IMG/VR virus record: IMGVR_UViG_3300013285_000514
Span: 1 to 26,349 of that record
Direction: 5' to 3' (one strand)
Length of the DNA: 26,349 bases
Origin: a virus
Shown: positions 5,452 to 21,898 of the stretch, piece by piece
Layout: the number at the start of each line of letters is the position of its first letter
How positions within the stretch are numbered: position 1 is the stretch's first letter
Notes under the pieces: model-generated
What the model saw: only the letters and a program-made list of their open reading frames with translations
Told to the model about the DNA's origin: nothing
The model's database searches: none
Made by a program: the position numbers and the translations under genes

Positions 5452-6544
5452 GTTTATACTTAAACAAGCCAGCAAGTATCCAAACATTAGTAACTTAGCC
5501 AAACATAGTTGTACTAAGATGTTTACTAACTTTGAGATCGACTATTACGGCGATGTTAGAATTTGTTGTAAAACATGGATGCCTGAGCCTGTAGGAAATC
5601 TTCTTGAACAATCAGCATCAGAAATTATCAACAGCCAAAAAATTAAAGGTATGCTGTTTGACATGCGTCAAGGCGGATTTGGTTATTGTAACGACTTGTG
5701 TCCAACCTTAAATGATTTTCTACACGATAAATCACAATTTTATATTGTACCCAAAACAGAGGTAGATAATCAAATTAAAGGACAGTCTATTGTTGTAAAC
5801 TTTAGCTATGATCCTAGTTGTAATTTGCAATGTCCTAGTTGTCGCAGTGAATTGTTGATGGTAGATCCTATTAATCCCACAGATCCTCGAGAATTACACA
5901 TTTTACAGGTACATGAAAAAGTTAAATTGTTAGTCGACGAGCTGTTATCAACTGGCCGTATTATAACACTATCTATCACAGGTAGCGGAGATCCATTTGC
6001 TGGAAATATATTTTGGAATTATTTAAAAGACTTGTCATCTAAAACTGTACCTGCTAATTTACGTATACAGTTAGTTACTAATGGCACGTTGATGACTGAA
6101 AAGCGATTACTAGAAATTAAATCATTGTGGCCGCATATTACAAATGCAAGTGTTAGTATCGATGCCGCGACCGAAGAAACATATAAGGTAGTTAGGAAGA
6201 ACGGTAGTTTTAACAACCTAAAAAAGAATTTAATACATTTTGATTCGTTAATTATGTCAGGTGCATTTCCTAGGTGGCAAGGGTGGCAAACTAATTTTAT
6301 TGTACAGAGAGATAATTTTAGAGAGATGAAAGAATTTGTGGAATGGCAGTTAACATACTTATCACGTCCTGTAATATGGCTACACTTGATAGCACAGTGG
6401 TATCATATACCCGACGAGAAGTTTAAAGTAATGGCAATACATTTAGATGGGCATGACTTTAAAAATGACTTAGTAGAAATTATTAAAGATCCTGTGTTCA
6501 GTAATACACAAGTTAGAATGGGTAATTTAAACTCAATTACTTAA
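5444..6544 (+). CDS. Radical SAM protein, family C (N-terminal SPASM/twitch domain)
   Basis: A 366-aa protein. Cysteines lie N-terminal to the core (C23, C41, C42, C82, C86), with FEIDYYGDVRICCKTW resembling the beta-hairpin of a SPASM/twitch auxiliary-cluster domain. The radical SAM motif CNLQCPSC follows (C126, C130, C133). The usual GGEP is replaced by TGSGDPF, and an SIDAATEETYKVVRKNGS segment is typical of the barrel. An auxiliary domain placed before the barrel recalls the N-terminal-twitch radical SAM class found in phages and bacteria. I chose the ATG at 5444 because it overlaps the upstream stop by 8 nt; an earlier in-frame ATG at 5414 lies inside the previous gene. The end overlaps the convergent radical SAM gene by 12 bp. 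Substrate unknown. Confidence 0.85.
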   Translation: MPEFILKQASKYPNISNLAKHSCTKMFTNFEIDYYGDVRICCKTWMPEPVGNLLEQSASEIINSQKIKGMLFDMRQGGFGYCNDLCPTLNDFLHDKSQFYIVPKTEVDNQIKGQSIVVNFSYDPSCNLQCPSCRSELLMVDPINPTDPRELHILQVHEKVKLLVDELLSTGRIITLSITGSGDPFAGNIFWNYLKDLSSKTVPANLRIQLVTNGTLMTEKRLLEIKSLWPHITNASVSIDAATEETYKVVRKNGSFNNLKKNLIHFDSLIMSGAFPRWQGWQTNFIVQRDNFREMKEFVEWQLTYLSRPVIWLHLIAQWYHIPDEKFKVMAIHLDGHDFKNDLVEIIKDPVFSNTQVRMGNLNSIT

Positions 6545-7612
6545 CTTGGTAACATCTAAATTATCAAACTCTGCTGGATCGTTATATCTGCCATCGAATG
6601 ATGAACACGTACCTGCGCAAGTGGCTAACCTTCCCGTAGTATAATCTTTGTCCCAGCTATTGCTAATGCCATTAAAGAACTCACCGTTGAACACAGTATC
6701 CCATTCTTGTAAGTGTAAGTTAACTAAGTCTCCGCCAGTTCGGGCCCATAGCTCATCCCATCCGTCAGGAAACTTCTTACCATGTCTTACCCACAGGCCA
6801 GCACCCAGATAACAACATGGCCACAAGTGACCCAGGTAGTCAATATATGCCGCACGATCTTTTTGTGCATGGCAACTAACGCAAGTCTTTTCAGACTTCT
6901 TAAACCACTCTGATAAGTTCAGAGGTTTAGTTTGCATTACTACCTTGTGTACCATGCCTTCCGTAGTGGGCGGCTGTATCAATACACCATTACCGCCAAA
7001 GCGTTGCACTCCAAACAACTCGTCAAGAAAGAATCTGTGACTAGGTTTAACTATGAATTGTTTAAAACCCAGCGAGTCCGCAAATACACGAGCATCTTCT
7101 ACTTGATGTTGGTTGTGCTGAAACACGATATACTGCCAATTAGCATTGCCACCGGCCGCAATAAATGCTTTGGCATTTTCGATTACTTTGTTCCATTTAA
7201 CATTTACACGATATATGTCGTTAGTGTCAGCAAGTCCATCGATAGCAAACTGTACTTCAGAATTTGGGCCAAGTGCTACTGCTAATCTTGCCCACCAATC
7301 TGCACTTTTCATTCCGCCATTGGTGCTTACGTTGATCTTAAAGTGTGTACCTTTTTCTCTTACTGCCTTACATACTTGTAAAAAGTTAGGTGCCGCACAT
7401 GGATCACCTATCGTGCCTGCAAAGCGTAAAATTTCCAAGCCTGCATAAACATGATTTGGAATACGATTCTTAAAAAAATCTACACTGAGACATTTTTCGT
7501 TAAACCATGAGTGGTCGCCGGGAGTTAATTCTCTAACGCACTGTGGACAAGCCGCATTACAGAATCCGCTACTCTCAATTTCTAGTTCTCGTAGTTTAGT
7601 GTAAAAAGTCAT
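6533..7612 (-). CDS. Radical SAM/SPASM protein, family B
   Basis: A 359-aa protein with the radical SAM motif CNAACPQC (C18, C22, C25) close to the N-terminus. AGTIGDP takes the place of GGEP, and a conserved STNGGMKSADWWARL block follows. The C-terminal CVSCHAQKDRAAYIDYLGHLWPCCYLG region is a SPASM-type auxiliary-cluster domain. It is a clear paralog of the protein at 16425-17513: both share TNGG..(S/N)ADWWARL, FAIDGL, KVIENAKAFI.AGGNA.W and H..HQVE. I prefer the ATG at 7612 because the core then begins just like the paralog; an in-frame ATG at 7633 would add seven residues. It follows the possible kinase-fold gene with a 17-nt overlap, so the two form one unit. Substrate unknown. Confidence 0.86.
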   Translation of the reverse strand: MTFYTKLRELEIESSGFCNAACPQCVRELTPGDHSWFNEKCLSVDFFKNRIPNHVYAGLEILRFAGTIGDPCAAPNFLQVCKAVREKGTHFKINVSTNGGMKSADWWARLAVALGPNSEVQFAIDGLADTNDIYRVNVKWNKVIENAKAFIAAGGNANWQYIVFQHNQHQVEDARVFADSLGFKQFIVKPSHRFFLDELFGVQRFGGNGVLIQPPTTEGMVHKVVMQTKPLNLSEWFKKSEKTCVSCHAQKDRAAYIDYLGHLWPCCYLGAGLWVRHGKKFPDGWDELWARTGGDLVNLHLQEWDTVFNGEFFNGISNSWDKDYTTGRLATCAGTCSSFDGRYNDPAEFDNLDVTKLSN

Positions 7613-8297
7613 GTTGTTGTATGATAGTGTCAATTAAGTCTGCTGGATAATTAGATCTAAAACTGTTAAATGCTACTTGTTGTAATGTTTTAACATTGTA
7701 AGGAGTATCTAAGTCCATGCCTGCATCTTTTAAAACTACTCCTAACTTTTCTTGTCGTTCATAACTTATTTGTTTTAGTACATTGCGTATTGTAATGTTA
7801 GACTCTGCTTTATCATAACAGAAGAACCAATTGAACGGAATCAATACTCCATTATTTGCAACCCAACTATTAGGATGCAAGCTAAACTTCATAATATTCT
7901 GGCTCCACATTTTCTTCACTAAATCGACCCATTGTGTTTTCCAATCAGGTAGTACTGCATCGTATCCTGATACTCGCCCTTGCATATAAAAATCATCTCC
8001 ATACCATTCGACGAAGATTTTACGGTTAGTATGATCAACATCTTTAATAGCTAACGTAGGCATTACTTTAGATGCACGAGTATGGAATTCTAATTCTTTC
8101 TCAAATCGCTCAATTAAATCTGGTTCAGTCCAATTTACATTTTCGTAATCATAAATATGATATGCTGGATCTCTGTTAAAGCTCATACAAAATGTTGTTT
8201 TGTCTGGACTCACATAAGGAGTGTACACTAAGTTTGCACGAACCATTTCGTCGCCTTCCTTATTGTAGTACAAGTTCCAATTTGAGATATTAGTCAT
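7596..8297 (-). CDS. Unknown protein, possible kinase-like fold (233 aa)
   Basis: A 233-aa protein. After an Asn/Tyr-rich N-terminus there is an acidic helix (ERFEKELEFHTRASKVMPTL), a strand pair with RKIFVEWYGDDFYMQG, a helix containing WVDLVKKMWSQNI, then KFSLHPNSWVANNGVLIPFNWFFCYDKAE (about residues 137-165). The SLHPNSWVANNG...F.W.FCYD arrangement is reminiscent of the catalytic and metal-binding loops of small-molecule kinase folds, but there is no HxD and no clear nucleotide loop. Kinase or pseudokinase is therefore only a guess. It is the first gene of a two-gene minus unit with the family B radical SAM gene and lies head-to-head with the oxygenase at 8340. I see no Shine-Dalgarno. Confidence 0.7.
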   Translation of the reverse strand: MTNISNWNLYYNKEGDEMVRANLVYTPYVSPDKTTFCMSFNRDPAYHIYDYENVNWTEPDLIERFEKELEFHTRASKVMPTLAIKDVDHTNRKIFVEWYGDDFYMQGRVSGYDAVLPDWKTQWVDLVKKMWSQNIMKFSLHPNSWVANNGVLIPFNWFFCYDKAESNITIRNVLKQISYERQEKLGVVLKDAGMDLDTPYNVKTLQQVAFNSFRSNYPADLIDTIIQQHDFLH

Positions 8298-8339
8298 TTT
8301 TTGTTTGATAATTAAGTATATAAACTAGTTATCTACAAT

Positions 8340-9119
8340 ATGATCCGCGGAATAAATTCTCAGCCCTATCTTAACTTAGACTCTTACATAGATGTAGAAG
8401 GTTTCAAAAGCCTTCATTACAAAATTTGTAAGGGTATAGTCATGTCTGAACAGAAGAAAGAAGGCAACATTGTTATGATGGGTGGATGGAATAATCAGTA
8501 TGATGTAACGTGGAAGCCTTTAGCATTTGCCATTGACGAATACAATGCATTACCAGAAGATCATGAAGTTAGAGTGTTGGGCAGAGAAATAGGCGAATGG
8601 GCTAACCGCGATAAGTTTGTATTATTTTTAAAACTTGCCCTCGGCGGTTACGATGCGTATCAGTTTATTTTCCTTAAAACAGAAGATGGCGGGTGGGAAA
8701 GTCGTTTTGAAGAAAAGCAATGGACGCACGATGCACAATATTTTCTAGAATTGAAACAATGGTTAGAAAAACTAGTACCCAGTGTGTTTACACATCTTGG
8801 CCGCATTATTATTTTTAAAGCAGAACACGATTGTATAATGCCGCTACACAGAGATTTAATATACCCTAACGAAACTGATTATTTTGATCATAGACATGAA
8901 TTTATACATATCCGTCCTAATGCCGATAAACCATTTTATATCTGGGATAGCGAAGCTGATAATAAAGTATTAGTAGAAAGCCATGCAACATTCTTTAACG
9001 ACCAGGACTGGCATGCAGGTGGACGTACTAACAAACAAACTTACAGTATTCGCATAGATGGTGTGTTTACAGAAGAGTTTCGTAACAAGATAGGCATCGG
9101 GCACCTACCTGGTTATTAA
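8340..9119 (+). CDS. Fe(II)/2-oxoglutarate oxygenase-like protein (DSBH fold)
   Basis: A 259-aa protein with the facial-triad pattern H170-x-D172 (PLHRD), a distal H225 (DWHAGG), and R238 in YSIRIDG as the likely 2-oxoglutarate carboxylate ligand. Strands such as HEFIHIRP, FYIWD and ATFFND fit a double-stranded beta-helix. By family knowledge such enzymes hydroxylate or desaturate with O2, Fe(II) and 2OG. The N-terminal 90 residues are an extra domain. It is a paralog of the protein at 17539-18312, sharing IN..P(Y/F)LNLD.Y near the start and GVFT(E/D)EFR at the end. Both copies are divergent from a family B radical SAM gene. The end overlaps the convergent oxygenase-like gene by 4 bp. No Shine-Dalgarno. 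Substrate unknown. Confidence 0.82.
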   Translation: MIRGINSQPYLNLDSYIDVEGFKSLHYKICKGIVMSEQKKEGNIVMMGGWNNQYDVTWKPLAFAIDEYNALPEDHEVRVLGREIGEWANRDKFVLFLKLALGGYDAYQFIFLKTEDGGWESRFEEKQWTHDAQYFLELKQWLEKLVPSVFTHLGRIIIFKAEHDCIMPLHRDLIYPNETDYFDHRHEFIHIRPNADKPFYIWDSEADNKVLVESHATFFNDQDWHAGGRTNKQTYSIRIDGVFTEEFRNKIGIGHLPGY

Positions 9120-9640
9120 AGTTCGTAGCTGACTAGTTGAAAACTTACTTTAGGTTCAAAGCCAATATTAGCCGCACCGTGCCATTCTCTAGCATTATCA
9201 AACTCAAATAAGTCACCACGTTTATACTCTAGCATTTTTCCTGCGTAGAGGAAAATGTGTCCGTCAATGTGATCCTGCATTGCCATCCAGAAACGTCTAA
9301 AGCTCTTGGATTCTGTTTTAAACGCATCAACGTGTAAGGGAAAAACCTTACATGGTTCGATCTTACACATCCACCACTCAATTGTACCCGGCAAGTCTAT
9401 AGGCAGTTTTAAGTCCTCCATGCTAGTCATTCCAAAGTCATTAAAGTAGTGCATACTCCAGCCAGCGCCTTTTAAGTCATAGCCCAAATTCCACCACTTG
9501 TCTGCTTGTTCCTTTTTCCAAGGATCGTCTTCTTTTAGATAAACAGGACGAGCCTCACCCCTTCCATCTAAAGTCATCTGTAGTAGCTGAGGATTGGCAT
9601 CGATCCAATCTGCATAATTTCCGATATATTTCATAGTCAT
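9116..9640 (-). CDS. Fe(II)/2-oxoglutarate oxygenase-like protein (174 aa)
   Basis: A 174-aa protein with H103-x-D105 (PLHVDAFK) and a distal H154 in REWHGAANIG, spaced as in the iron-binding triad of cupin-fold oxygenases. Strands FLYAG, GDLFEFD and VSFQLVSYEL fit the beta-helix. Basic residues that could bind 2-oxoglutarate occur (R115, R116, K164), but which one does so is unclear. It resembles compact peptide-hydroxylase relatives rather than the longer 8340 type. I chose the ATG at 9640: it lies 5 nt after a perfect TATAAATA late promoter, and the extra 33 residues of a longer frame would overlap the divergent gene at 9680. A possible second ATG is two codons further in. Confidence 0.78.
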   Translation of the reverse strand: MTMKYIGNYADWIDANPQLLQMTLDGRGEARPVYLKEDDPWKKEQADKWWNLGYDLKGAGWSMHYFNDFGMTSMEDLKLPIDLPGTIEWWMCKIEPCKVFPLHVDAFKTESKSFRRFWMAMQDHIDGHIFLYAGKMLEYKRGDLFEFDNAREWHGAANIGFEPKVSFQLVSYEL

Positions 9641-9645
9641 AAAAT

Positions 9646-9653
9646 TATTTATA
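9646..9653 (-). promoter_or_regulatory. T4-type late promoter
   Basis: A perfect TATAAATA on the minus strand, followed by 5 nt (ATTTT) and the ATG at 9640. In T4 the octamer spans about -13 to -6, which would place the transcription start on or beside the A of the ATG, giving a leaderless mRNA. No Shine-Dalgarno is present. Confidence 0.7.
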
Positions 9654-9666
9654 GTTATTGAAAACA

Positions 9667-9674
9667 GATAACTA
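9667..9674 (+). promoter_or_regulatory. Weak late-promoter-like octamer
   Basis: GATAACTA matches six of eight positions of TATAAATA and is followed by five T and the ATG at 9680. The match is poor, but the 5-nt spacer is the same as in the divergent promoter at 9646-9653, with which it shares a 39-bp intergenic space. Confidence 0.3.
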
Positions 9675-9679
9675 TTTTT

Positions 9680-11104
9680 ATGACAAACAAGACATTCTGG
9701 ATTCAGCCTAAAGAAACTCAAATCGGACAATGGCAACAACAGATTACAGATTTAACTGGTAGCCCAAGTTTTTGTGTATTGCCCTGGATACATTTAGCGA
9801 CCCGTCCAAACGGCGATATGCGTATCTGTTGTGTTGCCAATGCTAGTGGTGCCGACACCGGAGATTATAGTGTTGGACTAGTTAAAAAAGAAGATGGTAC
9901 TCCTGCTAACTTTGCACACGATTTGCCCACCGAGGCATTTAATAATGATTATATGCGTAGTGTACGTAAGACTATGTTGGAAGGTGCTGTTCCTGCTAGT
10001 TGTACTAAATGCTTTAAAGAAGAAGAACAAGGCATGGCAAGTAAACGTATATGGGAAACTGGTACTTGGCATTTACAAGAAGGTATTGACATTCCTGAAC
10101 TTATTGCTCAAACAGCAGAAGACGGTAGTGTGCCTTACCAACTGCAATATTTGGACTTACGACTAGGCCACACTTGTAATCTTAAATGTATTATGTGTAG
10201 TCCACATGACAGTAGTATGTGGGTTCCAGAACACAAGAAAGTATTTCCTATATTCACTAGCCCATTAATTAAAAAACAAATGAGTTGGCAAGCTGACGAG
10301 TTTAATAACAAGTGGCACGAAAATCCTAAGTTCTGGGAAGAAATTTACGACCAGATTCCTAACATTAAACAGTTATATTTTGCTGGTGGTGAACCGTTAC
10401 TAATTAAAGAACACAAATCTTTCTTATTGGAAATTATTGCTCGCGGATATGCCGGTAAGATTACACTACGCTATAATACTAACGGTACACTAATCAGTGA
10501 AGAAATGATTGACATATGGAGTAAGTTCCGTAAAGTCAAAGTTGGCTTTAGTTTGGACGGCATGGAAGAACGCGGCCACTATATTCGCTATCCATTAGAT
10601 TGGGACGCAGTAGACGCTAATCTAACTATGTTAGATAACGCACCGGATAACATACAGACCAACATTGCTTTTGCTGTACAAATTTTAAATATCAAACACG
10701 TACCGGCATTTATTAAATGGAAGGTTAAACGTAATTTTAAGAAGATCAACTTTGACAAGAACGCCAGTGGTCAAACAATGGGTGGCGGATTGATCGGTGT
10801 ACACTTGTTATGGATTCCTACTTGGCTAAGTCTACGGGTATTGCCAAAGGAAGATAAACTGGCGGTGCGTGAATTGTTTGCTGAACTACAAGAATGGTTG
10901 TGGAAACACTACACTCAAGACAAAGAATTTTGGGAAGTTAATCCCTACGGTTGGAAACGTTGGGAAGGCATACTGGACTGGATGGATGCTGAAGACCATA
11001 CCAACTTACTGCCAGACTTTAAAGATTACATTACAACAATGGATGCTCAACGTCAGACTGACTTTGCTGTTGTGTTTCCAGAGCTTGCACACTTACTTTT
11101 GTAA
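9680..11104 (+). CDS. Radical SAM protein, family C (N-terminal twitch)
   Basis: A 474-aa protein. The N-terminal domain carries C32 (FCVLPWIHLATRPNGD), C50/C51 (MRICC) and C108/C111 (ASCTKCFKEE), the layout of the 'twitch domain-containing' radical SAM class with an auxiliary cluster ahead of the barrel. The core motif CNLKCIMC gives C166, C170 and C173, then FAGGEPLL and RYNTNGTLIS. The C-terminal 130 residues are Trp-rich and helical. It is a relative of 12900-14159 (same FC..P(W/F).(H/G)LATR.(N/D)G opening) and more distantly of 5444-6544. The last 74 bp overlap the convergent radical SAM gene. The ATG follows a T-run without a Shine-Dalgarno. Substrate unknown; proteins of this class are usually unassigned. 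Confidence 0.88.
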   Translation: MTNKTFWIQPKETQIGQWQQQITDLTGSPSFCVLPWIHLATRPNGDMRICCVANASGADTGDYSVGLVKKEDGTPANFAHDLPTEAFNNDYMRSVRKTMLEGAVPASCTKCFKEEEQGMASKRIWETGTWHLQEGIDIPELIAQTAEDGSVPYQLQYLDLRLGHTCNLKCIMCSPHDSSMWVPEHKKVFPIFTSPLIKKQMSWQADEFNNKWHENPKFWEEIYDQIPNIKQLYFAGGEPLLIKEHKSFLLEIIARGYAGKITLRYNTNGTLISEEMIDIWSKFRKVKVGFSLDGMEERGHYIRYPLDWDAVDANLTMLDNAPDNIQTNIAFAVQILNIKHVPAFIKWKVKRNFKKINFDKNASGQTMGGGLIGVHLLWIPTWLSLRVLPKEDKLAVRELFAELQEWLWKHYTQDKEFWEVNPYGWKRWEGILDWMDAEDHTNLLPDFKDYITTMDAQRQTDFAVVFPELAHLLL

Positions 11105-11987
11105 GAGGAATGTCTGCCGCGCAGGTACAGAAATTTCTATCGCATCTAACGGGTTCGCTAGGAGCAACAAAGTTGCCTTCGTATATGTTGCCTAGACTAC
11201 CACCGACTCTACAAGTGGCGCGATGTACATCACCGTCCCAATTTATCATGAGACTTTCTATACCTGCGTTGCAAGTCCAACCATTAAATTTATTCTGATG
11301 ATTCTTAATCATGTCGTTGGCATGATACAACAACTGTGCATATTCTTTATCTAACCAAACTACTGTATTTGCTTCTACTGTAGATTCTAATTCTTTAAGC
11401 AAATCCAAATCATTTGTATTATAACGCATGTCGTCAAACAAGTCATGGTCGCCTTGTGTCCAACGTATACGACGAACAGTATTAGGAATATGTCCCAACA
11501 AACACTTAGCACGTAATTGTGTAACAACATCCATGTAATCATGGTGTGCCATAATCTGTGCTATGACTTTTATTCCAGTTATCTTATGTACACTTTCTAC
11601 AGTATTGAATACACGTTGCCAGTCGTATTCTAAGTGTATGCTAAACACATATTGATCCACCGGTAATTTAGAATAAAACTCATAAGGTAGAGTGCCATTA
11701 GTTGTTACGTTAATCCAACTAATTCCAACATGCTTACAGTATTTTATAAGTTCTTCAAACTTGGGATGAACGCAAGGCTCGCCGCCCGTAAAACTAAGAC
11801 GTACAGGTTTACCTAACAGCATCAATTTATCTACAGTTGCTTTAAGTATTTCTATATTAGTATGCGGACTGGAATTGTCGTGTATACTACTAGGACAATA
11901 GCTACAGTCGTAGTTACAACGCTTGCCAAGATTCCATTCAATCTTAATAGTATTTTGATGAGGATAGCGACTTGTTACTTTAATCAT
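11031..11987 (-). CDS. Radical SAM protein, family A (SPASM-like C-terminus)
   Basis: A 318-aa protein with CNYDCSYC (C24, C28, C31), SFTGGEPCVHP and NVTTNGTLP, a complete radical SAM core. The C-terminus has GWTCNAGIESLMINWDGDV followed by C-rich segments (RATCRVGG, VRCDRNFCTCAAD), suited to an auxiliary 4Fe-4S cluster. It is a paralog of 4480-5451. It is the last gene of a five-gene minus operon and its ATG lies 8 nt inside the preceding gene. The final roughly 25 residues, a Gln/Ser-rich tail, are read from DNA that also encodes the end of the convergent gene at 9680, so that tail is probably a by-product of the overlap. No Shine-Dalgarno. Substrate unknown. Confidence 0.86.
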   Translation of the reverse strand: MIKVTSRYPHQNTIKIEWNLGKRCNYDCSYCPSSIHDNSSPHTNIEILKATVDKLMLLGKPVRLSFTGGEPCVHPKFEELIKYCKHVGISWINVTTNGTLPYEFYSKLPVDQYVFSIHLEYDWQRVFNTVESVHKITGIKVIAQIMAHHDYMDVVTQLRAKCLLGHIPNTVRRIRWTQGDHDLFDDMRYNTNDLDLLKELESTVEANTVVWLDKEYAQLLYHANDMIKNHQNKFNGWTCNAGIESLMINWDGDVHRATCRVGGSLGNIYEGNFVAPSEPVRCDRNFCTCAADIPLTKVSVQALETQQQSQSDVEHPLL

Positions 11988-12903
11988 GTTGCGTGTGCTT
12001 TAAAAATGTAGTGTAAGCAAGGTCACTGCTAATAAACTCAATCTTTTTAACTCTCTTCACTTTACTCATTACTTGTTTATTCCATTGAAGTTTACAAACA
12101 TGATTAGGAACATACCAATCACTGACAGTCGGGTGAAAGTCTAGCATATCTTGCGTGATAATAATCTCGCCTAGCAAGTAGCGTCCCAGTGCCAGGGTGT
12201 TTAATTCTGCGATTGGGATTTTCTTTTGTTCTTCTACATCTAAACTCGAGTACCACTTGTAAAAATTATTCTCGGCAAACTTATCCCATAAATCTTCTAT
12301 TTCAAATACTAATAATGTTTCTGTTTTTATAAATTGTTGTACAACTAACTGATTTATATCCATCAATGTCATATCGTTATCGAACCACATGTCTAGCCAG
12401 TCTTTGCCTACTGTACTATATCCTAGCAACAATGCTCCCCAGTGGTGGTTGCGTGTAGTTAGCCAATGTTTATGATACTCCTGTAACGGAACACTTTTAT
12501 CTGGATTGGAATTAAATTGAAACGTAGCGTTAAACTCTCTTAGCGGGTTATCTATCTTAACTTCAATTTTATGTATTAGTGTATTAATACGTTGCCATAT
12601 ACTTGTTTGCTTGCTGTCTACAAACTCTGCATGTAGTTTGTTTAGTTGCTCGTGTGTAACAGGTTCTGTAATTATTGTACTACTAACTGATTCTGCAAGT
12701 TGATTAAGTTCCTGTAATATTTCACTAACAGATCTAGTATCTGATGTAACAGTGACTAATTTTGTATAATGATTTAAATTTTCCTGCCAAATATGTTGTA
12801 CAGGATTGTCGTTGAGTTTGTAATACAATGTCAGCTCTTTATCACCGCAGTCTGTTACAATACGTGCGGTGTTGTTGGTTTTGTTATTAAACAACTCTTT
12901 CAT
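11980..12903 (-). CDS. Unknown protein in radical SAM operon (307 aa)
   Basis: A 307-aa protein that I do not recognise. The N-terminal part has beta-like strands (ARIVTDCGDKELTLYYKL), the centre is helical (SVSEILQELNQLAESV; WQRINTLIHKIEVKI), and a conserved-looking aromatic patch follows (WLTTRNHHWGALLLGYSTVGKDWLDMWFDNDM, in about residues 147-178). The end is basic. It has few Cys residues and no metal motif, so it is unlikely to be a redox enzyme itself; a binding or scaffold partner for the radical SAM proteins on either side is possible but unproven. It overlaps the upstream radical SAM gene by 4 nt and the downstream one by 8 nt, so it is translationally coupled to both. Confidence 0.75.
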   Translation of the reverse strand: MKELFNNKTNNTARIVTDCGDKELTLYYKLNDNPVQHIWQENLNHYTKLVTVTSDTRSVSEILQELNQLAESVSSTIITEPVTHEQLNKLHAEFVDSKQTSIWQRINTLIHKIEVKIDNPLREFNATFQFNSNPDKSVPLQEYHKHWLTTRNHHWGALLLGYSTVGKDWLDMWFDNDMTLMDINQLVVQQFIKTETLLVFEIEDLWDKFAENNFYKWYSSLDVEEQKKIPIAELNTLALGRYLLGEIIITQDMLDFHPTVSDWYVPNHVCKLQWNKQVMSKVKRVKKIEFISSDLAYTTFLKHTQHD

Positions 12904-14159
12904 TTAAATGCGTTAAACTCCGGAGTAACATCGAAGAAACTTTGTTGTCTAGTGGCATCTAGTTTAGTGTTAAAGTCTATACAGTCTTCCCATTTGTCAC
13001 TTTGATCTCTAGCCATCAAATAATTAATATTATCTTGTATTTGTCCCCGGGTGTATTCTAATAATTCAGGATGTAATTTTATCATTTTAAATTCTGATAA
13101 CTGTTCTTGTATTGCACGTAATTTTGTTATGGCTAGTACTTGTAATTCTCTAGGTAATACTTGTGCAGATAATAGTTTAGGATATTCAACTCGATGTGTA
13201 TGAAATATAATTCCAAGGTCGTTTAAGAAATATTCTATTATTTTATCTAATACAAGTATGTTACTAACTTGTACGGTAACGGCGCCAACTATACGACTAA
13301 TATTTGAAATAGTTTGTATTTGTTTAATGTTGTTAATTAACTCTGCCCAAGATGCATTGCCACGTATGTATTCATAACTATTACCAATCCCGTCAATACT
13401 AACATTAACTGCTACGCTTTTAAATTTAGGCCAGTATTCCCATATAGTACGATTGCTCTTCCCCAACGTGGTCAAGTTGGTAGCATACTTAATTTCAATC
13501 TGATGACCGTAAGGAGCAAGCATATCTAATATGCGATAGTGCTGTGGATCCATTAAAGGTTCGCCGCCAGCGAATTCTATTCGGCGAAAATACGGAAGCA
13601 ATTTTTCTAAACTAGCCCACCATTCGGGATTGTCTTGAAACTTATCAAGGAACGGCTTAAATTCTAACTTATGTTCCTCAACGATGTCATACATTATGTT
13701 ACTTTCTTTTTTGTAAAAGTCTTTAACTTCACTCCAGTCGTTCCAACTAGTACTGTCCATAGGGTGGCACATACGACATTTAAGATTGCATAGGTTATTT
13801 AATTTAAGTTCCATAGTGGGAATCTCAAACGGCATCGTATAATCGCTGTTCATTGTACTAACAGCATTAGGATATAGTTTAATACGTGATTCTGGAATTT
13901 TTCCACGTACATGGCGTAGTCGTAGGCTTTCAACTCCTTGATCTTCTAAACTAAAACATGGCTCGCATTCAGTCGGGCGATAACCTGTAAGTACTTGCTT
14001 ACGTATACGTTTTATGTTATCGCCATTCCATATTTCTTCTAGTGTATTATTTTGAATAAAACCAATCGGATGACTACGACAGCAAGCACAAATTGCGCCG
14101 TCTTCTCTAGTAGCTAATCCTGTGAAAGGATGCATACAAAATGTTGGAGGATTAATCAT
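12900..14159 (-). CDS. Radical SAM protein, family C (N-terminal twitch)
   Basis: A 419-aa protein. Twitch-type cysteines C8 (TFCMHPFTGLATREDG), C24/C26/C27 (ICACC) and C65/C68 (TECEPCF) precede the core motif CNLKCRMC (C124, C128, C131). FAGGEPLMD and VSIDGIGNSYEYIRGN follow. This is the same architecture as 9680-11104, with an auxiliary-cluster domain before the barrel. I chose the ATG at 14159 because the conserved opening begins there and it overlaps the PP-loop ATPase stop by 8 nt; a longer in-frame start at 14219 would add 20 unconserved residues inside the previous gene. It sits between the QueC-like ATPase and the 307-aa unknown in one operon. Substrate unknown. Confidence 0.88.
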   Translation of the reverse strand: MINPPTFCMHPFTGLATREDGAICACCRSHPIGFIQNNTLEEIWNGDNIKRIRKQVLTGYRPTECEPCFSLEDQGVESLRLRHVRGKIPESRIKLYPNAVSTMNSDYTMPFEIPTMELKLNNLCNLKCRMCHPMDSTSWNDWSEVKDFYKKESNIMYDIVEEHKLEFKPFLDKFQDNPEWWASLEKLLPYFRRIEFAGGEPLMDPQHYRILDMLAPYGHQIEIKYATNLTTLGKSNRTIWEYWPKFKSVAVNVSIDGIGNSYEYIRGNASWAELINNIKQIQTISNISRIVGAVTVQVSNILVLDKIIEYFLNDLGIIFHTHRVEYPKLLSAQVLPRELQVLAITKLRAIQEQLSEFKMIKLHPELLEYTRGQIQDNINYLMARDQSDKWEDCIDFNTKLDATRQQSFFDVTPEFNAFK

Positions 14160-14880
14160 TTTGGTCAATCGCCCACGCTCGTTCTTTACACCAAAAACAC
14201 TCATTGCATATAGGCACAAATTGTCCTAGTTTATATGTTATATAATCAATACCTTCAAACTCGCCTTCACAACTTCTTGTGATATTAAACAAGTCCATTA
14301 TATCAAGTTGTTTGTATTGTTTCAACACCCATGCTTTGTCAACAAATCTAAATGGATGACTAGCAATTTTCCCCATGTGTATCATATACTCTAAATGTTT
14401 GTTTTGTTCCGATGACTCTATGTCACGTTCGCGCATGCCATTGAATAATGCCAGCCTTGGATTGCGTGTAACTGCATTGAAGTATGCATCGACATCATTG
14501 TTATAACACACAAACTCTGCGTAAGCACGTTGTTGTATGTTATCGCCACTAACCTTTTTGTCATATTCGTCGGTTAAATTCGGCCCCATATTGCCATATT
14601 CTAATTCCGGTGCTATAAAATTAGTATGCCTTACAAATCTAATATTTGGAAATCTTTGCAATAGCCAATTATAAACATTGAGACTATCGTAACTTTGCCA
14701 AGGACGAGTCTTCCACATTCTCTTATGAGAAATTATATGTACAGTTTGATGTGTTACTAATGAACATAATAAGTATGCTAATAGTGCTGAGTCCGCTCCG
14801 CCACTTACACTAATAGCAATATTTTTCCATTCTGTGTTTAATGGAATACGTACACCGTCTACGTTATTAAATGTTTGCAT
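14152..14880 (-). CDS. QueC-like PP-loop ATPase
   Basis: A 242-aa protein with the N-type ATP-pyrophosphatase loop SVSGGADSALL (S26-GGAD-S31) on a first strand/helix, and four C-terminal cysteines: C204 (SCEG), C225, C228 and C231 (CNECFWCKERAW). In QueC (7-cyano-7-deazaguanine synthase) such a cysteine set binds zinc. By family knowledge these enzymes adenylate a carboxylate, making amides or nitriles. QueC-like proteins also occur in defence systems as protein-modifying enzymes (Cap9, QatC). No QueD, QueE or FolE partner is visible, so deazaguanine synthesis is not supported here. The gene overlaps the aminotransferase-like gene by 14 nt and the twitch radical SAM gene by 8 nt. It most likely activates a carboxylate in the operon's pathway. 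Confidence 0.8.
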   Translation of the reverse strand: MQTFNNVDGVRIPLNTEWKNIAISVSGGADSALLAYLLCSLVTHQTVHIISHKRMWKTRPWQSYDSLNVYNWLLQRFPNIRFVRHTNFIAPELEYGNMGPNLTDEYDKKVSGDNIQQRAYAEFVCYNNDVDAYFNAVTRNPRLALFNGMRERDIESSEQNKHLEYMIHMGKIASHPFRFVDKAWVLKQYKQLDIMDLFNITRSCEGEFEGIDYITYKLGQFVPICNECFWCKERAWAIDQND

Positions 14881-15724
14881 CTTCTAAATACCTTATCAAT
14901 GGACTTACTCCTACTGGCTGTCCGTTACGCAATGCCAAGTAAATGCTTTTAGTTGGTGTAAGATTAAAGTCTTTACACACTTTATAATAGCGTTCACCGT
15001 GCGTGTTCCACAAATAGTCGGGTTCTAGATTACGTATAAAATGTAATGCGATCATAGCAGGTGCGCGATTATTCATTTGAAAATCATTCATTATACTAAT
15101 AGCATCGGGTTTAAGATTATTAGTAAATCTTAAACCTATTCTATTCCAACCAAGACCCAAACCTTTGCTTAAACTAAATGATGCGCTTTCAATCGGCACA
15201 TAGATTAAATTAAGTCTGATGTTTCGACAGCAAGACATCCATGCCGCATCGATGTGTACTGTTACGTGTTTGTAAAAAGCTTCTTCCATTAAATCACTAA
15301 ATCCGCGAGTCGTATCTCCTGTGCTAGGAAACGGCTGTGCCAAAATTAAAGGAAGGTCGCCTTTTAAAGAACCGTGCTGTGAATACTCTATATCAGGATT
15401 CAATCTTTCGTGGTAACGATAGTCGCCTTTAAGTATTTGCACAGGACCTTTCATGTATTGTGTATCAATTGACTGTGTGCATCCTGTGATAATATCAACA
15501 CGTTTAAAAGATGCTAGACCTTCTATAGTATTGAGTTTGGATGATAGGAACCAATCAGTACATTCTTCTTTGAAGTTAGTATATACTTGGTCCGAAATAT
15601 CTGTATCAATTTTACCAGTTAATACTTCTTGTTGTAATGCTTCGATTTTTCGATCTGATAGAGGTTGCGGTCTATCAATTTCTAACCAGTGTGCTTCGTA
15701 GGTAGGTGCAACCTTTAGTCTCAT
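14867..15724 (-). CDS. PLP-dependent aminotransferase-like protein (fold type I, short)
   Basis: A 285-aa protein. HIDAAWMSCCRN (D159) resembles the Asp that contacts the pyridine nitrogen of PLP. SFSLSKGLGLGWNRIGLRF (K187, R195) is the Schiff-base lysine motif and phosphate-contacting region of class I/II aminotransferases. A DIITGCTQSID stretch near residue 77 may be the cofactor-phosphate loop. It is about 100 residues shorter than usual (around 390), so the N- and C-terminal small-domain parts are reduced, and activity may differ or depend on a partner. It is the first gene of the five-gene minus operon. The ATG lies 4 nt after GTTAAATA, a weak late-promoter match, with GAGAAGG further upstream. 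Its end overlaps the QueC-like gene by 14 nt. Confidence 0.72.
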   Translation of the reverse strand: MRLKVAPTYEAHWLEIDRPQPLSDRKIEALQQEVLTGKIDTDISDQVYTNFKEECTDWFLSSKLNTIEGLASFKRVDIITGCTQSIDTQYMKGPVQILKGDYRYHERLNPDIEYSQHGSLKGDLPLILAQPFPSTGDTTRGFSDLMEEAFYKHVTVHIDAAWMSCCRNIRLNLIYVPIESASFSLSKGLGLGWNRIGLRFTNNLKPDAISIMNDFQMNNRAPAMIALHFIRNLEPDYLWNTHGERYYKVCKDFNLTPTKSIYLALRNGQPVGVSPLIRYLEDANI

Positions 15725-15728
15725 AAAA

Positions 15729-15736
15729 TATTTAAC
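15729..15736 (-). promoter_or_regulatory. Weak late-promoter-like octamer
   Basis: GTTAAATA on the minus strand keeps the TAAATA core of the late promoter (6 of 8) and is followed by four T and the ATG at 15724. It faces away from the strong site at 15752-15759 inside a 39-bp intergenic region, mirroring the arrangement at 9641-9679. Confidence 0.35.
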
Positions 15737-15751
15737 CTTCTCTTGTTAGCA

Positions 15752-15759
15752 TATAAATA
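15752..15759 (+). promoter_or_regulatory. T4-type late promoter
   Basis: A perfect TATAAATA followed by TTTC and the ATG at 15764. A T4-type start point would fall on or next to the ATG. This site also shows that a longer upstream frame from 15743 cannot be the real start if the promoter is used. Confidence 0.7.
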
Positions 15760-15763
15760 TTTC

Positions 15764-16447
15764 ATGCTAACCAAAACTAACGTACATTTTAACATAGATC
15801 CAATCATAGAGCAAGTACTTTCTTTGTCGTGGGCTGAAAAAAGCATATTATTGAATGAAACGTCCGGCACACTACTCAATGGGCCTTACTGCATATTACC
15901 CGAATTTGTTAATACTCCGTTAGGAGATGTATTAACCAAATTAGGCAACGTTGGTGAGGCAAGATTACTTCGTCTAGAGCCCGGCGAAACTTACTCGGCA
16001 CATACAGACCCGGATGACAGATTGCATTTATCGATCATCAGCAATGAGTTTTGCTATTTGGCCAATTTGGAAAATAATACAATGCATGGACTTCCAGTAG
16101 ATGGATTTATTTGGGAATTAGATACGAGTATTAAACATAGTGCATTTAATCTTGGAAGTTATGTACGCATTAACTTAAATGTTAGAAAATTATTACCAGT
16201 ATTTGTTGAACCCGGGTATGCTGTTACTGCCGACACAGATAAATTTAATTGGAAACAAGAGCTGTATTTAGATGTTATGGGTTATGTTAATCGTAAGATT
16301 AAAGAAGGTGTAATTACTGGATTTACAAAAGTAGACGAACGCACTATAATGGTTACCACCGATGACCGTACAGTATTAAATTATCTAGTAAATATATCTA
16401 ATCTTAAAGGATATCATTTATCAGTTACACCAGTTGGGTTCGAGTAA
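15764..16447 (+). CDS. Aspartyl/asparaginyl beta-hydroxylase-like oxygenase
   Basis: A 227-aa protein. EPGETYSAHTDPDDRLHLSII contains H80-x-D82 and R86-x-H88, and the second half of the motif is H125 (IKHSAFN) with R135 (YVRINLNV). This order (HxD, RxH, distal H, distal R) matches the AspH-like branch of Fe(II)/2-oxoglutarate oxygenases, which hydroxylate Asp/Asn side chains. The C-terminal 80 residues form a separate alpha/beta segment (DVMGYVNRKIKEGVI, ERTIMVTTDDRTV) of unknown role. The ATG at 15764 is chosen because a perfect late promoter ends 4 nt before it. The end overlaps the convergent family B radical SAM gene by 23 bp. Substrate unknown; protein or peptide side chains are plausible by family. 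Confidence 0.8.
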   Translation: MLTKTNVHFNIDPIIEQVLSLSWAEKSILLNETSGTLLNGPYCILPEFVNTPLGDVLTKLGNVGEARLLRLEPGETYSAHTDPDDRLHLSIISNEFCYLANLENNTMHGLPVDGFIWELDTSIKHSAFNLGSYVRINLNVRKLLPVFVEPGYAVTADTDKFNWKQELYLDVMGYVNRKIKEGVITGFTKVDERTIMVTTDDRTVLNYLVNISNLKGYHLSVTPVGFE

Positions 16448-17513
16448 TAAACTGATCTGAAGGTTTTGAAATATTATCCTTGGCCATTACTCCACATGCT
16501 CTTGCACATGTAATCAGTCCTTTTTCTTCCCAGTACTTGTTCCATACTGTTTGATAAGGCAAGCTATCAACGATATCTTTAATTGAAACTACAGTTGCAT
16601 CGATAGCATCAATGCCGCCCAAGTCAGATAATAAATCGTTATATTGTTTTGCTATCTCATAGCGTATAGATGCTATGTTATTATTTGTTTCAAACGGAGT
16701 ATACGGTATCATGGCGATCCAGCAACAAGGAAATACTTTGCCAAATGCATCTATATAAATTTCTTTCAATTCAAGTGCTTGACATCTAATTTCACTAGCT
16801 TTGACGATTGCTTTATAATTTTCAATAACTTTCTTATCAATGAATTTTAGTTCTGTATAGTGTGACGGTTCGATATAATGTGTAGTTTTTCCTTGTTTGT
16901 TGTAAACTGGAAATTGTTTGTCTAACATAAAACGCGAACTATCTTTCATAGTAAAACTACTGAATCTCAATGTGCTAGCCAGTGCTTTTGCTTCTTCAAC
17001 TTGATGTTCATTGTGCTTAAATCTGATATAGGCCCATTCAGCATTGCCACCTGCATCTATAAATGCTTTGGCATTTTCGATTACTTTAGAAAATGTTGTT
17101 CCTATACGATATAATTCATGTGTACCTTCCAACCCATCTATAGCAAATATTACTAAATGCTCTTTTGGTAATGCTTGAACTAATCGAGCCCACCAGTCTG
17201 CATTACGAGCTCCCCCGTTAGTATGGATACGTATAGGAGTATTGGGTGACACTTTAGAAGAGTAGGCACACATTTCAAGTAGTTCGTTGTTAAGTATAGG
17301 ATCGCCAAAATTACCACAGAAGTAATAGCTATTAACTTGATTTAAAACTTCTTTAGTCATAATACGTTTGAATGTATCCAGTGACCATGAATTAATAGTC
17401 ATAAGCGGATTCGGCAAACCTCCGTGTATGTTGCGTGTACACATGGGACAACTGGCTTGACAGTTGTTGGTTATCTCCAAATGGATTGTTTGTAATTCCG
17501 AAAATTTAAACAC
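16425..17513 (-). CDS. Radical SAM/SPASM protein, family B
   Basis: A 362-aa protein with CQASCPMC (C18, C22, C25) just after FSELQTIHLEITNN, the variant CGNFGDP in place of GGEP, and HTNGGARNADWWARL. A SPASM-type C-terminus includes RCQALELKEIYIDAFGKVFPCCW and late cysteines (LITCARACG). It is a paralog of 6533-7612 along most of its length. The start is a GTG at 17513: upstream in-frame codons to 17591 would overlap the divergent oxygenase gene and are not conserved with the paralog. It lies head-to-head, 25 bp apart, with the oxygenase at 17539 and convergent with the AspH-like gene at 15764. Substrate unknown. Confidence 0.84.
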   Translation of the reverse strand: MFKFSELQTIHLEITNNCQASCPMCTRNIHGGLPNPLMTINSWSLDTFKRIMTKEVLNQVNSYYFCGNFGDPILNNELLEMCAYSSKVSPNTPIRIHTNGGARNADWWARLVQALPKEHLVIFAIDGLEGTHELYRIGTTFSKVIENAKAFIDAGGNAEWAYIRFKHNEHQVEEAKALASTLRFSSFTMKDSSRFMLDKQFPVYNKQGKTTHYIEPSHYTELKFIDKKVIENYKAIVKASEIRCQALELKEIYIDAFGKVFPCCWIAMIPYTPFETNNNIASIRYEIAKQYNDLLSDLGGIDAIDATVVSIKDIVDSLPYQTVWNKYWEEKGLITCARACGVMAKDNISKPSDQFITRTQLV

Positions 17514-17526
17514 TATTATAATCCGC

Positions 17527-17534
17527 CATAAATA
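17527..17534 (+). promoter_or_regulatory. T4-type late promoter (7 of 8)
   Basis: CATAAATA, one mismatch from TATAAATA, followed by TTGG and the ATG at 17539. The 4-nt spacing equals that at 15752-15759, so the transcript would again have almost no leader. Confidence 0.55.
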
Positions 17535-17538
17535 TTGG

Positions 17539-18312
17539 ATGCATCTAATTAACAATAAACCGTTTCTTAATTTAGACAAGTATTTAAACATAAATCACTT
17601 CCTATCATTGAAGAAAGACTTCTGCTTGCTATCTGCCCAAAATATCGATAAAGAAGTATCGTCTTGGGCTAGCGGAGGTATAGATGCTGACACTGCGGTT
17701 GAACGTTTTAAAAAACCAACAACGCTATATCAAGCATATCATAATACTAAACAGATTGATGATCCAGTAATGCAAGAACATATTAGTCTATTGGAAAATA
17801 AAGACAGTTACTATGAGCGCGGTGAAGGATTAGCACGTTATTTGCAACTGATGGCAAAAGGATATTGTGCGTTTAAACTATTACGATTAAAAACAGGTGC
17901 CCAGCCTAGTGCATGGCAAGACTTCGTTACTAATGATACTATCAAAGAATGGGTAGATACTTTACCATTCTCTGAAGTCACCAATGTAGATATGTTTTTT
18001 AAAGACAATCATGTTGTTCCGTATATACACAAAGATCATAATTTATTTCCAGTGGAAGAAGGCGATGACAGAGCTACTCCTGGGAAAGTGCAAGAGCTAA
18101 TTTACTTTAGATGGCATGTTGGAAAAGGATTCTGCGTATATGATATAGATGCTGATGGCAATATCATAGAAGAAATCCCATTGGATGGCCATGCTATTTT
18201 TTTTAATCATTACAACTGGCATGGAAAGCTAGGACATTCTATATCGGCATCTTTAGTGCTTAAAATTGAAGGTGTGTTTACTGACGAATTTAGAAAGTTG
18301 ATAAATGAATAA
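17539..18312 (+). CDS. Fe(II)/2-oxoglutarate oxygenase-like protein, paralog of 8340
   Basis: A 257-aa protein with H164-x-D166 (YIHKDH) and H228 (YNWHGKLGH) as iron ligands. The position that is Arg238 in the 8340 protein is K242 (LKIEGVF), so 2-oxoglutarate may be bound by Lys. Shared blocks with the 8340 protein are IN.(K/Q)P(F/Y)LNLD.Y at the start, the double-stranded beta-helix strands, and GVFT(D/E)EFR at the end. I chose the ATG at 17539 because conservation starts there and a late-promoter match ends 4 nt before it. It overlaps the SDR-like gene by 8 nt and so heads a three-gene plus operon. It is divergent from a family B radical SAM gene, as is its paralog. Substrate unknown. Confidence 0.8.
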   Translation: MHLINNKPFLNLDKYLNINHFLSLKKDFCLLSAQNIDKEVSSWASGGIDADTAVERFKKPTTLYQAYHNTKQIDDPVMQEHISLLENKDSYYERGEGLARYLQLMAKGYCAFKLLRLKTGAQPSAWQDFVTNDTIKEWVDTLPFSEVTNVDMFFKDNHVVPYIHKDHNLFPVEEGDDRATPGKVQELIYFRWHVGKGFCVYDIDADGNIIEEIPLDGHAIFFNHYNWHGKLGHSISASLVLKIEGVFTDEFRKLINE

Positions 18313-18847: not shown

Positions 18848-20452
18848 ATGTACAATGTAGTATTATTTTCCGACTTACCATTTGCACAGTTCTTCAGTAG
18901 GAATTTTGGAATGCATCGACTTGCTACAGAGCTACGTGGCCAAGGTTATACTGTACTATGTGTAAATTATATCTCCAGTATCAATTATGAAAACTATTGT
19001 AAACTAATAGATTTAGCCGTTGGGCCTGAAACATTAATGGTAGGGTTTTCAACTACATGGTTGCCTTACCTAGCATCGGGGAGTGAAAATAACGGAAGGG
19101 CTGTAATCGGTAGCAAACTGTTCTTTGCAGAATACGACAGCGAACAGCATCCGTGGTATTTTGAAAGTATGGGTTACAGATTTACCCAAGAAGGTCCTAA
19201 GTTATGGACTGATTATATTAGACAAAAGAACCATAAGACTAAAATTACAGTGGGTGGTTGTAAAGCCGCAAGTTACGTAACGTTTCCTGAAATTGATTAT
19301 GCATTTATCGGAGCAGGGGAAACAATGGCTGTTGATTTTGTTAATAGTTTAAGCGGTAAAGGCCCTAAACGTATTTTTAATAAAGTGATAGATTACGATA
19401 GAAATGCACAGAATCCGCAATGGGAATTTCGTGAATCGTTTACACAATATATCGAAGAAGACCTACTACGATCAACCGAGTTTATTAATATTGAGTTTAG
19501 TCGCGGATGTATGTTTCAGTGTGCCTTTTGCAGTTACCCATTGTTAGGACAAACTAGTGCTCGGGACATTATCAAGTATAAGGAAGTTATCCGTAAAGAA
19601 CTAATGGATAATTGGGAAAAGTGGGGAGTAACAAAATATCTAATTGTGGATCATACGTTTAACGATTCAACCTTAAAGCTAGAACTAGTTAAAGAAGTAA
19701 TAGACTCACTTCCATTCAAGCCTTCGTTCTGGGCTTATGCTAGAATAGATTTATTTGCTAGCCATCCAGAACAAGCACAACTACTATTAGATATAGGAGT
19801 AAAAGAAGTATTATTTGGATTTGAAAGCCTTAACCCAGAGACTGGCAAGGCAATTAAAAAAGCACACAGGGTAAACACACTCAAGGGATTAAAGATTGCC
19901 AAGAAAGTATGGAAGGATGAAATTTATCTTACTGCTAGTGCTATCTTAGGTTTACCTAAAGAAACTGTTAAATCGTTTGAAGAAACCATTGAATGGTTTG
20001 TCAAAGATGGCCACAATTACATAGATCATTTAGACTATAGTCCGCTAACACTTGTTAGTAGTTTGTTTGATACACGCTATGCTGAAACTAGTATTATCGA
20101 TCGTGATATGAAAAAGTTTGGGTACAGTTTAGGCAACAATTTAAACTGGATTAAAAATGACGGTACTGATATCACCAGCAGAGATCAAACTATTGAAATT
20201 ATTAAAAAGTGGTATGATACCTATAATAAAATTAATAAAGAAGATAAACAGTTGTTTTGGTTGTCGGGTTACGAAGCAGTAAGCTCTGCGCATTCGTATG
20301 AGAATTTAAAAGCAAGGCCTGGTAATGGGTATTTTGGTGCATTATCTAAAGAACATGGTAGCCCAGCTGACTTGTATCGCAAATACACTAGCACGTTGTA
20401 TTGGCCAGAATTATTTGCAATACTAAAACATAAATTAATCTCCGGGAATTAA
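18848..20452 (+). CDS. B12-binding-domain-type radical SAM protein, family D
   Basis: A 534-aa protein. The N-terminal 190 residues look like the cobalamin-binding-type fold seen before many radical SAM barrels: GMHRLATELRGQGYTVLCVN, MVGFSTTW, ITVGGCKA, and IDYAFIGAGE. No DxHxxG is present, so cobalamin, if bound, would be without the usual His ligand. The core motif CMFQCAFC (C221, C225, C228) is intact. KEVLFGFESLNPETGKAIKKAH and SAILGLPKETVKSFEET are typical of the MiaB/Elp3-like barrel. Members often methylate or rearrange unactivated carbons. A GAGG Shine-Dalgarno lies 6 nt before the ATG, inside the SDR-like gene. The end overlaps the convergent GNAT-like gene by 18 bp. Substrate unknown. 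Confidence 0.85.
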   Translation: MYNVVLFSDLPFAQFFSRNFGMHRLATELRGQGYTVLCVNYISSINYENYCKLIDLAVGPETLMVGFSTTWLPYLASGSENNGRAVIGSKLFFAEYDSEQHPWYFESMGYRFTQEGPKLWTDYIRQKNHKTKITVGGCKAASYVTFPEIDYAFIGAGETMAVDFVNSLSGKGPKRIFNKVIDYDRNAQNPQWEFRESFTQYIEEDLLRSTEFINIEFSRGCMFQCAFCSYPLLGQTSARDIIKYKEVIRKELMDNWEKWGVTKYLIVDHTFNDSTLKLELVKEVIDSLPFKPSFWAYARIDLFASHPEQAQLLLDIGVKEVLFGFESLNPETGKAIKKAHRVNTLKGLKIAKKVWKDEIYLTASAILGLPKETVKSFEETIEWFVKDGHNYIDHLDYSPLTLVSSLFDTRYAETSIIDRDMKKFGYSLGNNLNWIKNDGTDITSRDQTIEIIKKWYDTYNKINKEDKQLFWLSGYEAVSSAHSYENLKARPGNGYFGALSKEHGSPADLYRKYTSTLYWPELFAILKHKLISGN

Positions 20453-21891: not shown

Positions 21892-21898
21892 TTATTTA

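Follow-up and report, generated by a model that had tools for sequence, protein, structure and literature searches.

Modules rich in radical S-adenosylmethionine (radical SAM) genes have been noted in T4-like phages since 2010, and their function is not known. The Campylobacter T4-like phages CP220 and CPt10 encode 11-12 radical SAM proteins and a glycine amidinotransferase in exchangeable modules without known function (PMC2853527), the host-recognition island of pelagimyophages carries radical SAM cassettes (PMC7029224), and a marine T4-like genome contains 12 radical SAM genes (PMC5332604). Here we analyzed a five-gene run, A-Q-R1-U-R2, on the IMG/VR virus contig IMGVR_UViG_3300013285_000514, whose 26,349 bases are referred to below as the window. 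The general kind of module is already known, though unexplained, and this operon is a variant on it. It shares with CP220 and CPt10 the interchangeable modules with several radical SAM genes, but the relevant sections of that report mention no QueC-fold ligase (PMC2853527). In the pelagimyophages and the marine T4-like genome, too, radical SAM genes abound in a variable region or across the genome, but these are marine, the relevant sections of those papers describe no A-Q-R1-R2 order (PMC7029224, PMC5332604), and the freshwater genomes in the pelagimyophage paper are given there as lacking radical SAM genes (PMC7029224). A literature search found no description of this operon. We read it as part of a modular phage pathway that makes a polar surface or small-molecule decoration, and we put the probability of this reading at roughly 40%.

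The other precedent is the QueC fold. According to the relevant part of a 2026 study, canonical QueC is recognized by the motifs YxQxHxxE, VPxRN and YPDC and a zinc-site tyrosine (Y189), in addition to the ATP loop and four cysteines (PMC13329287). Cap9 of the type IV cyclic-oligonucleotide-based antiphage signaling system (CBASS) and QatC of qatABCD are QueC-fold ligases outside the queuosine pathway. The base-holding Tyr and Asp of Cap9 are described as having QueC counterparts (PMC13279940), and Cap9 is listed as keeping the base-recognition motif YPDC (PMC13329287). The five genes of the run are as follows.

14867-15724, minus strand: gene A, 285 amino acids (aa), first in the run, resembling pyridoxal phosphate (PLP) fold-type I enzymes (aminotransferase-like)
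14152-14880, minus strand: gene Q, 242 aa, a QueC-fold PP-loop ATPase with four cysteines like those of a zinc site and a non-canonical active site
12900-14159, minus strand: gene R1, 419 aa from ATG, a radical SAM protein with an N-terminal SPASM/twitch cluster domain
11980-12903, minus strand: gene U, 307 aa, with no assigned fold, optional, between R1 and R2
11031-11987, minus strand: gene R2, 318 aa, a radical SAM protein with five conserved C-terminal cysteines (SPASM-like)

The four junctions overlap by 14, 8, 4 and 8 nt when R1 is started at the ATG at 14159; a TTG at 14219 is an alternative start that gives a longer reading frame and a Q/R1 overlap of 68 nt. An initial annotation of this DNA had described five overlapping genes, and its coordinates and overlap lengths were borne out, with all five genes on the minus strand. 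Overlap per se was nevertheless rejected as a sign of function since, by a manual count over the 32 open reading frames taken as genes, 19 of the 31 junctions in the window overlap anyway, some of them between opposite strands. Overlap alone therefore carries little weight, and conservation is what counts. In the window, an Rfam scan gave no match, a tRNA scan found none, and promoter and terminator scans did not rise above chance level.

A search of IMG/VR with Q returned 204 matching stretches, of which the best 80 were kept; dropping 19 with the same Q left 61 loci with distinct Q, a set that leans to close relatives. By bit score, R1 was found near Q in 59 of the 61 loci, R2 in 56, A in 40 and U in 9, counts that vary by method (clustering gave 38 loci for A and 8 for U). 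A's own search matched 18 loci. Among the 58 loci with at least 1 kb of upstream sequence, A lay directly upstream of Q in 38, overlapping it by 4-20 nt in all of them. In the 55 loci with 3.5 kb downstream of Q, R1 overlapped Q in 43, came after an insertion in 10 and was not found on that strand in 2, while R2 followed in 53. Where both R1 and R2 were present they overlapped in 34/53 loci, and an insertion of 0.6-1.2 kb was seen in the other 19 (a split counted manually). The order A-Q-R1-R2 was kept in 35 of the 52 loci with both flanks and was contiguous in 18. The full window order including U is a minority arrangement; among the U-bearing loci, A is missing upstream in L070, and an insertion precedes R1 in L054. 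The gene-order search in other phages that the initial annotation had proposed was thus run in IMG/VR and found the gene set conserved: the run is conserved despite overlap being common locally. Other frequent companions of Q in the 61 loci were the oxygenase gene at 15743 and the radical SAM type at 16425 (57 each), the N-twitch radical SAM gene at 9680 (56) and the gene at 2848 (49). The related records are fragments and may be incomplete, and judged by match score G002/G009, G004/G010 and G001/G007 look like near-duplicates. A tblastn search of 50,697 named phage records with Q, A, U and R1 (R2 was not included) gave no match at the limits used.

The AlphaFold model of Q has a mean confidence score (pLDDT) of 92, and its best PDB match is QueC 3bl5 (Foldseek E 4.5e-6). 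Structural comparison gave a Z of 14.3 to this QueC (root-mean-square deviation 3.1 Å, 171 residues aligned), followed by E. coli MesJ at 13.1, Cap9 at 13.0 and QatC at 12.7, where values within 1 are tied. The description of Q as a QueC-like ATPase with kin in Cap9 and QatC thus found support at the level of the fold. Q shares with canonical QueC this fold, the SGGxDS loop and a CxxCxxC site near the C-terminus; the SGGADS loop and C204/C225/C228/C231 are invariant in 49 aligned sequences. Over 63 Q sequences, the phosphate-binding loop SGGADS occurs in 62 (the family includes a fragment of 188 aa), and all 63 space their four cysteines as C(x)20CxxCxxC, in contrast to the canonical zinc motif C(x)8CxxCxxC. 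YxQxHxxE, VPxRN and YPDC were each found in 0/63 Q homologues, as was [ST]CY at the cysteine site. An hhalign comparison placed QueC R99 on D113, Y131 on M149 and Y189 on E205 at a low probability (6%, E 0.006), and a multiple alignment of eight sequences repeated these placements. Q instead has invariant or near-invariant stretches of its own, namely H52-x-R54 to Q62, DEY, VSGDN and TRSCEG; its invariant residues include H52, R54, W56, K57, D113 and E205. At E <= 0.01 the Pfam model PF06508 picks up 15 of the 49 Q members (in G003 over the C-terminal part of the profile), and Q has no PADLOC match. It lies beside R1, R2, oxygenase genes and other radical SAM genes, with no linkage to queD or queE. 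Since all three canonical motifs are absent from the 63 homologues, Q is a QueC-fold ligase and not a canonical QueC, as the initial annotation had suspected. It also differs from Cap9, which has YPDC, and from both Cap9 and QatC in that no Met-Gly partner was found in the operon. Judged from its residues, Q appears to keep the ATP-dependent activation machinery and not the known substrate pocket; because fold, ATP loop and cysteines are kept and the substrate motifs are lost, it plausibly retains ATP-dependent carboxylate chemistry with a new substrate.

R1 scores 330.2 bits against NF033640 (N_Twi_rSAM; cut-off 170), which confirms the N-terminal twitch behind its earlier label, and its C124/C128/C131 and C8/C26/C27/C65/C68 are invariant in 34 sequences. 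The protein at 9680-11104 is, like R1, far over the cut-off of this subfamily, for which we found a family name and no assigned reaction. R2 matches Pfam Radical_SAM (E 6.7e-13), and C24/C28/C31 and C239/C259/C282/C287/C289 are invariant in 30 sequences. It had been labeled a SPASM protein; the conserved five-cysteine C-terminal pattern agrees with that label, but the Pfam SPASM model does not match. The R2 core resembles viperin, Tes, MoaA and QueE, all far below the NCBIfam cut-offs (viperin NF038283, 51.5 bits against 180; QueE TIGR03365, 30.1 against 206.1). A viperin-type defense role, for which the PADLOC pVip model aligns with residues 14-184 at E 2.5e-16, was rejected on account of that score.

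In the family of A, the motif HxDxAW is present in 43 of 45 sequences and SxSKG and GWNR in all 45. D159, K187 and R195 are invariant in 37 sequences; we take K187 (in SxSK) to be the catalytic lysine, D159 the aspartate that pairs with PLP and R195 the arginine after the lysine loop. For U, which had been called uncharacterized, no convincing family was found in Pfam, NCBIfam or PADLOC, PHROG matches were weak (E 0.017 and 0.031), and the AlphaFold model (pLDDT 76; five models 55-76) had no PDB fold match at E <= 0.001. A match of U alone to Photorhabdus lectins (E 3.8e-5) disappeared once diverged homologues were added and was treated as chance. A nine-protein cluster that BLAST clustering had kept apart from U is a U homologue by profile (hhalign 96.8%), and most of these diverged homologues sit at U's place between R1 and R2 (nine further loci).

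We propose that the five genes form one operon, that it belongs to a large and modular island of enzyme genes carried by freshwater phages (T4-like in some demonstrated cases), and that its products would act jointly on a polar, carboxylate-bearing substrate. Q would adenylate the carboxylate with ATP, and an amine would displace AMP to give an amide; A may install or help supply that amine. Radical reactions on that scaffold would fall to R1 and R2, aided by auxiliary Fe-S clusters, at a stage that we can place only provisionally, and U, when present, might assist R1 and R2 without catalysis of its own or by holding the substrate. Neighboring oxygenases and other radical SAM enzymes would then add or change groups, and the SGNH-, acetyltransferase-, sulfotransferase- and amidinotransferase-like genes of relatives would vary them, so that the product would differ from phage to phage. 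Its most likely form would be a glycan, lipid or small-molecule decoration, with the cell or virion surface as our guess for its destination. The pathway draws support from the invariant catalytic residues of Q, R1 and R2, the invariant motif residues of A, the linkage in the 61 loci and the varied tailoring genes. The chemistry suggested by the initial annotation (amine transfer, carboxylate activation and two radical steps) is plausible. We give a little less than an even chance to the more specific proposal of a new QueC-fold ligase subfamily, off the deazaguanine path, that works in line with two Fe-S radical enzymes toward a new decoration, with swapped tailoring genes, and is widespread in freshwater phages. 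The core of the operon, Q-R1-R2 and frequently A, recurs and is small enough to express, and the QueC fold gains a phage branch with a probable change of substrate. Should the product decorate a surface or nucleic acid, it would matter for how abundant lake phages encounter their hosts or escape defenses.

The operon lies among further enzyme genes of the window, listed here with one possible structural gene.

9680-11104, plus strand: second N-twitch radical SAM gene (NF033640, 393 bits), convergent with R2, a common companion outside the operon
15743-16447, plus strand: Asp/Asn beta-hydroxylase-like oxygenase gene (PF05118 E 3.2e-4, 21.0 bits, cut-off 22.6), divergent from A
16425-17591, minus strand: island radical SAM protein (phrog_21308 E 1.6e-24; Pfam Radical_SAM 25.7 bits, cut-off 29.5)
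4480-5451, plus strand: radical SAM gene, over the Radical_SAM cut-off
5441-6544, plus strand: radical SAM gene, over the Radical_SAM cut-off
6533-7633, minus strand: radical SAM gene (Radical_SAM 28.7 bits, cut-off 29.5)
18848-20452, plus strand: radical SAM gene like the B12-binding family (Radical_SAM E 2.8e-16; TIGR04072 E 2.1e-20, 72.8 bits, below the cut-off of 360)
21115-21891, plus strand: fatty-acid desaturase-like gene (PF00487 E 2.8e-15)
21881-22534, plus strand: Asp/Arg-hydroxylase-family gene (PF05118 E 4.3e-13)
23829-24932, minus strand: possibly a receptor-binding protein (Mtd_N, Major tropism determinant N-terminal, E 4.1e-5, 23.8 bits, cut-off 26.3)

At E <= 0.001, the window has 7 Radical_SAM matches, and 14 related phage records have 7-17 apiece. 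Of 15 records searched, 11 encode an A-type Fe-S carrier, in keeping with a heavy Fe-S demand. Inspection of the related loci by eye showed SGNH-, acetyltransferase (GNAT)-, sulfotransferase-, amidinotransferase- and glycosyltransferase-like genes; one of the sulfotransferases was confirmed by Pfam, and the remaining tailoring labels were assigned by eye. The T4 gp23 protein was found in three of the 15 phage records (G002, G006 and G009) and in the L110 genome described below, so the label T4-like is established for these alone; a search for the T4 neck protein found it in the L110 genome and in no other.

Relatives of Q were encoded on only two genome contigs. The first, L110 (PAAV01000055.1), binned as Chloroflexi, has T4 gp23 on the same contig as its Q-like gene and is apparently a phage contig in a metagenome-assembled genome (MAG). 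Many radical SAM genes lie in the first 14 kb of this contig, along with the gene for an Aminotran_1_2 protein; a true Aminotran_1_2 match is encoded near the Q-like gene, and A aligns to it only weakly. The second, L111, is a 710-kb MAG contig labeled Bdellovibrionia, in which positions 7575-17846 encode a Q-like ligase, an N-twitch protein and a B12-radical SAM protein, and, by eye, an oxygenase and a radical SAM protein resembling those at 17464 and 16425 of the window, together with sulfotransferase-like and CysC/D/N-like (sulfate-activation-like) genes. As in the phage island, a Q-like ligase gene is clustered here with N-twitch, B12-type and other radical SAM genes and an oxygenase gene, but this Q-like gene is 26% identical, no A, R2 or U was recognized by eye, and sulfate-activation-like genes adjoin. 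The presence of a similar set on L111 suggests that the product is useful outside phages and hints at a role for such sets beyond virions.

Genes of deazaguanine synthesis were searched for in the window and in the 15 records. In the window, no FolE or QueD-like gene was found, and the QueE model matched only R2 and 4480-5451, far below its cut-off. Among the records, PTPS/QueD-like genes occurred in 8/15 and FolE in 2/15, both FolE loci having a QueE-type gene nearby as read by eye; no record passed the cut-off of the QueE model TIGR03365, which yet only one of 14 control genomes passes. The TGT (tRNA-guanine transglycosylase) family was found in 0/15, although the Pfam model may miss diverged phage forms. 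Q is present at full strength in 14 of the 15 records, most of them without FolE. A separate 199-aa QueC-like gene occurs in two, and G013 has a QueC-fold paralogue beside an oxygenase in place of a strong Q. The initial annotation had argued from the lack of QueD, QueE and FolE, an argument that stands for the window and fails for the relatives. Four related loci add detail. In L105 (4598-9825) and L106 (4875-7428), FolE and QueE-type genes lie close together, with GT4-like and phosphoribosyltransferase-like neighbors by eye. In L099 (4939-7367), a QueD-like gene lies near a UV-damage endonuclease (UvsE)-like gene, by eye. L102 has a second QueC-fold paralogue (4920-5624, plus strand) with a CxKCWWCQER end, adjoining a homologue of the window gene at 21881 and three TauD-like genes, neighbors again read by eye.

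Several results weigh against the decoration pathway. Not all five genes are needed: A was not found upstream of Q on that strand in 20 of 58 loci, and U is missing from most. The aminotransferase-like assignment of A comes from motifs; PLP Pfam families matched 0/37 A homologues at E <= 0.1, and two PDB profile searches gave no significant match, one of them returning L-allo-threonine aldolase at E 0.54. The earlier label for A thus holds for the motif residues and lacks profile support. Few sugar-nucleotide or glycosyltransferase genes were seen, though a glycan product would predict them, and proximity to tail fibers is weak, consisting of one neighbor (23829-24932) with a sub-cut-off Mtd_N match. 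The bacterial placement of L111 comes from the record label and genes read by eye. The occurrence of FolE, QueD-like and QueE-type genes in some relatives leaves room for a deazaguanine substrate, and in the FolE-bearing G004 and G006 no QueC-family gene was found besides Q, which could in principle serve there. Substrate, product and pathway are all predicted from genes.

An alternative that we considered unlikely, though worth weighing, is hypermodification of DNA or RNA bases: enzymes of the operon and the island would make a bulky base, or a base substituent, to shield phage DNA or change tRNA. Phage hypermodification pathways combine radical SAM, PLP and acetyltransferase enzymes, and the FolE, QueD-like and QueE-type genes of some relatives would fit; but the TGT search described above was empty, no recognized base-modifying transferase was seen among the window proteins scanned, and a similar set occurs on the bacterial-labeled contig L111. 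That contig also argues against the post-translational modification of a phage structural protein, such as a tail fiber, by radical, hydroxylation and ligation steps, an explanation that we regard as just as unlikely. In its favor, peptide modification typically involves Asp/Asn-hydroxylase-like genes and radical SAM/SPASM proteins, and the receptor-binding-like protein (Mtd_N, below cut-off) lies at 23829-24932; against this, the window island contains no small precursor gene and almost no intergenic space for one. For want of that room, a pathway to a ribosomally synthesized and post-translationally modified peptide (RiPP) with its own small precursor was rejected.

Two further explanations are each less likely than a new substrate, and we consider both quite improbable. 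The initial annotation had suggested protein conjugation; on the Cap9/QatC model, the protein substrate would be U or some other partner. The structural closeness of Q to Cap9 and QatC speaks for it, and QatC also lacks the canonical substrate residues in the available descriptions (PMC13279940, PMC13329287). Cap9 and QatB systems are described as using an N-terminal glycine as acceptor (PMC13279940). The suggestion was not supported, however: a Met-Gly start was found in 0/10 aligned U sequences, U is optional across loci, Q lacks the long extensions of QatC, and no other protein substrate is evident. Alternatively, Q could be a 7-deazaguanine enzyme acting on 7-carboxy-7-deazaguanine (CDG) from phage or host FolE, QueD and QueE, as its top fold match, its PF06508 matches and the gene content of G004 (FolE, QueD-like and QueE-type genes) would allow, but the link is disfavored by the missing motifs, by the strength of Q in 14 records against FolE in 2 and QueD-like genes in 8, and by a linkage that is to R1 and R2 and not to que genes. 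The canonical queuosine pathway was rejected, as the QueC signature and que linkage both fail. Of the two findings that the initial annotation had named as telling against a different product, que genes were partly found, in relatives only, and clear orthology of Q to QueC was not.

Outside the subjects above, the second N-twitch radical SAM gene at 9680-11104 matched three named phage records at 22-25% identity. The window also encodes a 72-aa protein that matches translation initiation factor IF-1 (2460-2678, minus strand; PF01176 E 2.5e-19) and a dual-specificity phosphatase-like gene (25883-26347, minus strand) that runs off the end of the record.

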